Assembly: GCF_018283675.1 (NCBI RefSeq)
Contig: NZ_JAGVRK010000001.1
Location: 2,046,001-2,110,000, forward strand
From: Metabacillus flavus
GTDB lineage: Bacteria; Bacillota; Bacilli; Bacillales; Bacillaceae
DNA length: 64,000 bases
Direction of reading: 5' to 3'
Both the position numbers and the translations under genes were made by a program. The notes beneath the pieces were generated by a model. That model was not told the origin of the DNA. It saw only the letters and a list, made by a program, of their open reading frames with translations, and searched no databases. Shown one piece after another: positions 36,389-37,030 of the stretch. Position 1 is the first letter of the stretch, and every line of letters starts with the position of its first letter.

Positions 36389-36754
36389 TTAAAAATTATC
36401 TTTAATCGCTTTGTCAATAAGCCCCTGACACCGCTCAAGTTCTACCTTCAGCTGCTTTTTATAGAGCATCGCAGCGTCAAAATCCTTAAACTCATAAAAG
36501 ACAACTTCCTGCAGTTTCATACCCTCTTTCTTTTTCTTAACCTGCTTTAATACTCCATCATCAATTAATTCATGAAGAGCTTTATATACTTCAGAATGAT
36601 TAGGCTTATAGCCGAATCTTCTGAATTCATCTCTCATATTATCCAGCAGCTTTAGCCCATAAAGTCTTTTCTGGTCTGTCAGTGTGATCATATATAATTT
36701 AAGAAATGCCCGCTGTTTAAGCAGGAAACCGCTGCTGTTTCTCGATTCTTTCAT
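36389..36754 (-). CDS. rtp: Replication terminator protein RTP
   Basis: 121 residues from the ATG at 36754 (GGAGGGGACAGA upstream). The whole sequence matches B. subtilis RTP: SSGFLLKQRAFLKLYMITLTDQKRLYGLKLLDNMRDEF, then GYKPNHSEVYKALHELIDDGVLKQVKKKKEGMKLQEVVFYEFKD, and a C-terminal dimer helix YKKQLKVELERCQGLIDKAIKDNF. RTP is a winged-helix dimer that binds Ter sites and stops replication forks in one direction. The Ter-like site at 36869-36898 overlaps its promoter, which in B. subtilis gives autoregulation. Its presence marks this window as the terminus region. Confidence 0.96.
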   Translation of the reverse strand: MKESRNSSGFLLKQRAFLKLYMITLTDQKRLYGLKLLDNMRDEFRRFGYKPNHSEVYKALHELIDDGVLKQVKKKKEGMKLQEVVFYEFKDFDAAMLYKKQLKVELERCQGLIDKAIKDNF

Positions 36755-36861
36755 TCTGTCCCCTCCTATTGAAAGCATACTACTCCTTTCGCTAATAGAA
36801 CATGATTTCCTTTTTGAATTTTTAAAATGATCCTTTTTACATTTTATTACGGGCTTGTTTT

Positions 36862-36890
36862 ATAGTATGATTATTTAGAACATAGTTCAA
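36862..36890 (-). promoter_or_regulatory. rtp promoter overlapping the proximal Ter site
   Basis: On the minus strand: TTGAAC, 17 bases, TACTAT. The -35 box and spacer lie inside the Ter-like sequence, so RTP binding would block its own transcription. Confidence 0.7.
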
Positions 36891-36898
36891 CTAGAAAG
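36869..36898 (-). other. Ter site 1 (RTP binding, replication fork arrest), proximal
   Basis: The minus strand reads CTAGTTGAACTATGTTCTAA followed by ATAATC. Compared with the B. subtilis Ter consensus (an ACTAA-type A half, then CTATGTACTAAAT with TTC), the B half CTATGTNCTAAAT is kept with one change. It lies 115 bases ahead of the rtp start. By B. subtilis polarity the B half, here at the low-coordinate end, faces the fork that is blocked, so a fork moving to higher coordinates would be arrested. Confidence 0.8.
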
Positions 36899-36930
36899 TT
36901 TTTTGTCTGTTGTCTGTGCAGCACAAAGTT

Positions 36931-36960
36931 GATTATTTAGAACATAATTCTTTTAAAATT
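36931..36960 (-). other. Ter site 2, distal, direct orientation
   Basis: GATTATTTAGAACATAATTC (plus strand) repeats 19 of 20 bases of site 1 exactly 62 bp further from rtp and in the same orientation. The A half is more diverged (TTTTAAAATT), so binding may be weaker. Confidence 0.7.
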
Positions 36961-36995: not shown

Positions 36996-37030
36996 CAAAA
37001 AAAAACTGCCGGATGATTTCCGGCAGTTTT
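36996..37030 (-). terminator. Strong terminator of the HAD phosphatase transcript
   Basis: AAAACTGCCGG / CCGGCAGTTTT stem with a 7-base loop and, on the minus strand, nine T. Confidence 0.9.

Follow-up and report, generated by a model that had tools for sequence, protein, structure and literature searches.

The window analyzed here is a 64,000 bp stretch of the Metabacillus flavus genome, covering positions 2046001–2110000 of a 4.03-Mb contig on which dnaA lies at the contig start, so that the directions of both replication forks are fixed. It carries rtp, the gene for the replication terminator protein (RTP), with two Ter-like sites upstream, a promoter-like sequence and a terminator-like hairpin (Table 1). 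The encoded protein is a member of the RTP family: it matches the PF02334 profile across the full domain (profile positions 1–113 of 113; E = 3.5e-54, 182.5 bits against a curated cut-off of 26.7), and it also matches the solved RTP of B. subtilis (E = 2.3e-55). The listed open reading frame is longer, with a start at 36778 and 129 aa, and a GGAGGGG motif lies just upstream of the ATG adopted in Table 1. In an ungapped comparison, 85 of 122 positions are identical to the protein of locus L016 in genome G036, which we take to be B. subtilis 168 from the fit of its rtp position, dif and Ter sites; its genus is named accordingly below. Among named genomes, the most similar RTP proteins are those of Bacillus sp. 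SJS (98% alike) and Metabacillus mangrovi (89%).

Table 1. Features of the rtp locus (window positions) and of the terminus region outside the window (contig positions, window genome G000, contig C1).
Feature	Position	Strand	Remarks
rtp, replication terminator protein, 121 aa	36389–36754	minus	ATG at 36754; PF02334; 1bm9
Candidate rtp promoter, TTGAAC-17-TACTAT	36862–36890	minus	8/12 consensus bases; overlaps proximal site
Proximal Ter-like site (TerI position)	36869–36897	minus	20/25 consensus; 1 mismatch to joint A+B pattern
Distal Ter-like site	36931–36959	minus	18/25 consensus; 2 mismatches to joint A+B pattern
Terminator-like hairpin	37002–37030	minus (plus strand also listed)	between upstream HAD-hydrolase gene and rtp
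Left-array Ter-like site	G000:C1:1974490	plus	0 mismatches to A+B pattern
Left-array Ter-like site	G000:C1:1972611	plus	1 mismatch to A+B pattern
Left-array Ter-like site	G000:C1:1971320	plus	3 mismatches to A+B pattern
Weaker left-array Ter-like site	1972555		17/25 consensus
dif	G000:C1:1991277

Ter-like sites and candidate promoter upstream of rtp

As the sequence-only reading had described, the two Ter-like sites lie 62 bp apart in the same orientation and are identical at 19 of 20 bases over a 20-base stretch; a direct repeat of this kind appeared in none of 500 first-order resamplings of the 400-bp region. The B half of the proximal site (CTATGTTCTAAAT) forms the end nearest rtp, and in that of the distal site (TTATGTTCTAAAT) the first C is replaced by T. 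Judged by their letters, both sites have the CTATGTACYAAAT-type B-half core of B. subtilis-type Ter sites, with T for A at one position, likewise found in the other genomes of the genus. The overlapping A half (KMACTAANWNNW) is partial in the proximal site and poorer in the distal one; over both halves the sites total 20 and 18 of 25. The reference for these scores was the B. subtilis consensus for Ter, KMACTAANWNNWCTATGTACYAAATNTTC, as published (25 informative positions, as given in the accessible part of PMC3317982). For the 260-kb terminus region, chance alone predicts 0.15 sites at ≥20/25 and 11.3 at ≥18/25, so the distal site is not significant alone; it is convincing only because of its position and because a second same-direction site is present in all six genomes of the genus. 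The positive control, five sites of G036, scored 24–25/25. The proximal site is predicted to block the clockwise fork, which arrives from lower coordinates.

The proximal site was also said to overlap a promoter, implying autoregulation by RTP. The sequence TTGAAC-17-TACTAT is indeed present letter for letter, but it falls below the threshold of the promoter tool (≥9/12), which lists nothing between 36300 and 37100, where 1.9 matches are expected by chance, and it is poorly conserved. Among the six genus genomes the promoter-like match at the proximal site is the clear best only in L027 (TTGAAC-18-TATAAT), while in L032 it is one of three tied best matches. Another spot reaches 9/12, but it lies upstream of the terminator-like hairpin. 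This hairpin separates the upstream HAD-hydrolase gene from rtp, which would fit transcription of rtp from a promoter of its own. Autoregulation through RTP bound at the proximal site is possible, though weakly supported. In B. subtilis a ter site lies within the rtp promoter area, according to the available text of a review (PMC10331603).

Opposite-facing sites and dif

A joint A+B pattern searched across the 4.03 Mb at ≤2 mismatches gave four matches, two of them the minus-strand sites at rtp and two plus-strand sites in a left array about 108 kb from the pair, outside the window and beyond dif. At exactly three mismatches there were six more, one in the left array (1971320) and five elsewhere; the reversed control of the pattern gave two matches at ≤3 mismatches. 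The sites at 1971320, 1972611 and 1974490 are all intergenic. A search with the B half alone at ≤2 mismatches was discarded as noise, since it returned 274 matches genome-wide against 513 for its reversed control. Measured from dif, the left array is 17 kb away and rtp 92 kb, and both sites of the rtp pair point their B half toward dif. By its sequence, the genome has two opposed Ter groups with dif between them.

This layout does not support the proposal that the terminus blocks one fork only. The array just described faces the other way, with counterparts in all six genus genomes; because the opposite wall stands 108 kb away, a direct pair does not imply a one-fork terminus. Two opposed Ter clusters, separated by 93 to 119 kb at their closest sites, are found in 6/6 genomes of the genus, and a three-site spacing like that of the left array recurs in G076 and G077. 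A dif-like site was detected in 14 of the 17 genomes searched and was not found in G074, G047 and G051 (in G074 not with a second pattern either). Within the genus (n = 6), dif lies inside the trap in all five genomes where it was found.

Comparison across genera

A family search over 80 genomes placed 33 above the cut-off, of which 30 loci were examined (G035, G054 and G068 left out); 15 further loci (17 less two repeating L025 and L027) brought the comparison to 45. Three clades were distinguished, namely the window's own genus (g1), the B. subtilis genus (g2) and a further genus (g3). The region compared was the 600 bp upstream of rtp (322 bp in L028), with a site counted at ≥12/15. A plus site, in the same sense relative to the gene, was present upstream of rtp in 38/45 loci.

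Each of the 17 loci of the B. subtilis genus carries one plus site, at −156 to −173, without another in the 600-bp region, together with an inverted one (TerII) at −49 to −53. The six genomes of the window's own genus all have a direct pair of plus sites, one at −124 to −153 and the other no farther than about 310 bp from rtp, in upstream sequence that is otherwise hard to align. The two are 61–69 bp apart in four genomes and 177 bp apart in two (L025 and L026). By eye, the extra sequence between the sites in L025 and L026 resembles a decayed, shortened copy of an intergenic repeat, and a repeat resembling this insert also lies near the left Ter array. An inverted TerII in the slot near rtp was found in 0/6 own-genus genomes, where the best inverted score is 7–9/15 (7/15 in the window genome) and so at background, given that scores of at least 7, 9 and 11 occur in 98%, 30% and 0.8% of random AT-rich 60-mers. 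By sequence, the genus lacks the inverted TerI/TerII pair beside rtp of the B. subtilis terC arrangement, and the earlier statement that a direct rather than inverted pair departs from the B. subtilis arrangement holds for all six genomes.

In the further genus, each of the seven loci has a plus site, with a second plus site within 600 bp in five and about 1.36 kb away in the other two, and all seven have a degenerate inverted element in the TerII slot that scores 11–13/15. This element is kept at about −40 to −54 of rtp (L003–L009), reading ATGTTCTAATAATTC in five loci and ATGTTCTAACTATTC in two, and is perhaps an RTP operator. Elsewhere, a single plus site is present in each of six loci from Anoxybacillus and in one from Thermolongibacillus, Geobacillus icigianus has no site in the region compared, and of seven Priestia-type loci (L036–L041 and L050) five have none, L041 a weak plus site and L036 a weak inverted one. 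A protein tree of RTP (45 rows, 27 different) gives poor support for the order of the genera, so that TerII may have been lost in the window's genus or gained elsewhere.

Residue 30 of RTP is K in the window genome, in 5/6 own-genus genomes overall and in 2/17 of the B. subtilis genus, D in 7/7 of the further genus and E in the remaining loci. This position is important for arrest, and in the B. subtilis protein the mutant E30K is reported to be arrest-defective, so the K of the window genome counts against the fork-trap reading given below; a literature search for E30K gave no match.

Site polarity was compared over ten terminus stretches, three from the window's genus, four from that of B. 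subtilis and three from the further genus (G037 and G040, which have dif and Ter sites, were left out). With a 20-position pattern, written after the sites of both clades had been viewed and therefore partly circular in its scores, 45 sites reached at least 17/20, compared with a chance expectation of 0 to 0.05 per stretch. Their B half points toward dif in 40/45; the five that deviate are a single site in G076 and the TerII of each of the four B. subtilis-genus stretches. By the published B. subtilis consensus, the five sites of the window genome in this set score 18 to 21 of 25. The TerI-position site beside rtp faces dif in all ten stretches. TerII is thus, by these site scores, the odd one out in polarity among these genomes, and it is absent from the window's genus. 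A polarity this constant in three genera could serve as a simple predictor of the terminus.

A proposed two-sided fork trap and its alternatives

We propose, with a probability of about 0.85, that dif is bracketed by a two-sided RTP/Ter trap, in which rtp and its tandem Ter-like pair make up the right-hand wall, the one that blocks the clockwise fork. In B. subtilis, two RTP dimers occupy each Ter site and a fork stops when it meets the B half first, as stated in the accessible text of two papers (PMC10331603, PMC13220808). If RTP works here by this established mechanism, two dimers would bind each site, forks meeting the B half first would halt and those meeting the A half first would pass. 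The pair at rtp would then stop the clockwise fork and let the anticlockwise one through, the left array would do the opposite, and the two forks would be free to enter the 108-kb interval that contains dif but unable to leave it. RTP on the proximal site may also repress rtp, which is the weakest step of the scheme.

Cumulative G-C skew peaks close to dif, at a distance of 21 bp in the window genome and of no more than 2.3 kb in all ten stretches (≤250 bp in eight), TerII-bearing G036 included. The contig's arithmetic midpoint falls 22 kb from dif, 69 kb before the rtp pair is reached; the midpoint lies inside the trap in five of six genomes computed (in G002 with a left site that has 2 mismatches) and in G036 it is 89 kb beyond TerI. 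With the skew switch 92 kb and the midpoint 69 kb short of it, the pair may seldom meet a fork. These positions are a hint, though no proof, that fork fusion usually takes place near dif and that the rtp-side sites are probably a backstop, in which the doubling would make the wall harder to pass. The skew switch at dif may, however, reflect segregation-orienting sequence rather than fork meeting, and because it also occurs in TerII-bearing B. subtilis it does not separate the two designs. Skew was dropped as a test of TerII, as the ratios of the dif–rtp interval to the right flank overlap between the groups (0.77, 0.91 and 0.80 in the window's genus; 0.54, 0.66, 0.70 and 1.08 in the B. subtilis genus; 1.16, 0.98 and 0.64 in the further genus).

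A one-sided terminus, at which the pair blocks the clockwise fork alone and leaves the other unblocked, would fit the shared orientation of the two sites and the empty TerII slot (7/15, background), but it is very improbable in view of the opposite-facing array, whose best site has 0 mismatches and which recurs in 6/6 genus genomes. It is also improbable, though less so, that the two sites serve mainly as operators for rtp and arrest forks only incidentally. Their place in the rtp upstream region, the promoter-like sequence overlapped by the proximal one, their distance from the skew switch and the ter site in the B. subtilis rtp promoter area (in the available text of PMC10331603) would suit operators, which nevertheless have no need of an orientation, whether the dif-facing one kept at the TerI position in 10/10 stretches or the one relative to rtp kept in 38/45 loci; the promoter match is, moreover, weak and poorly conserved.

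Compatible with the two-sided trap, and on balance unlikely, is a further possibility in which only the proximal site is functional and the distal one is a decaying duplicate. The distal site has a poor A half and a score (18/25) that some 11 chance matches per 260 kb would reach, and the spacing of the pair varies within the genus; against decay, a second same-direction site has been kept in all six genus genomes despite upstream sequence that aligns poorly, and the further genus has one in every locus, within 600 bp in 5/7 and at about 1.36 kb in the other two.

The two-sided trap is most likely a variant of the B. subtilis system (TerI–TerIX, terC) in which TerII is missing and the rtp-side wall is doubled. 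The two have in common a homologous RTP, Ter sites with A and B halves, a TerI-position site in the same orientation and the same outer layout (TerI–dif–TerVIII) of opposed groups bracketing dif, over a width of 108 kb here and about 100 kb in B. subtilis (TerI–TerVIII, in the accessible text of PMC13220808). They differ in that the window's genus has, in place of the inverted TerII, a second same-direction site (62 bp off in the window), that the left array comprises three or four sites within 3.2 kb rather than two sites 12 kb apart, that no further outward right-hand site was found within 2 mismatches, and that the B half is CTATGTTC rather than CTATGTAC. The Tus/ter trap of E. coli works alike, with two opposed groups of polar barriers and dif inside, but its protein and DNA site are unrelated and it is not a member of the family (PMC10331603 and PMC13220808, in the text available).

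According to the accessible text of a 2026 review, the TerII of B. subtilis does not arrest forks when moved elsewhere (PMC13220808), and its absence may thus change the working geometry little. Tentatively, at somewhat less than even odds, the terminus of the genus could be described as a wide trap made of two separate tandem-Ter walls around dif, with no TerII. If so, TerII would not be needed for the trap in B. subtilis and could be either an operator or an addition specific to that clade; the genus would amount to a naturally occurring TerII deletion, where a fork coming from the right could pass rtp and reach dif. As far as the available text of the literature goes, RTP/Ter termination is known chiefly from B. 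subtilis, where the point of TerII is unclear, and a genus with rtp, a TerI-like site and an opposite array but no TerII offers a comparative test of its role. A literature search for rtp in Metabacillus or B. atrophaeus gave no match, and direct Ter pairs beside rtp may have been described in print before. The distribution of RTP among Bacillus species has been called even more restricted than that of Tus (review, text available in part; PMC10331603), and, as noted above, Anoxybacillus and Thermolongibacillus likewise have an rtp gene preceded by a Ter-like site.

In two other genomes rtp may sit away from the terminus. In Priestia abyssalis (L040, G086, C1), in which dif was searched for and not found, 10 of 11 Ter-like sites with ≤1 mismatch are plus at 1.88–2.43 Mb and minus at 2.77–3.00 Mb; the eleventh is plus at 3.19 Mb, and rtp lies at about 4.13 Mb, seemingly on the same scaffold. 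In Metabacillus iocasae (L037, G088), all seven sites on contig C4 face the dif-like site found there, and rtp is apparently on another contig.
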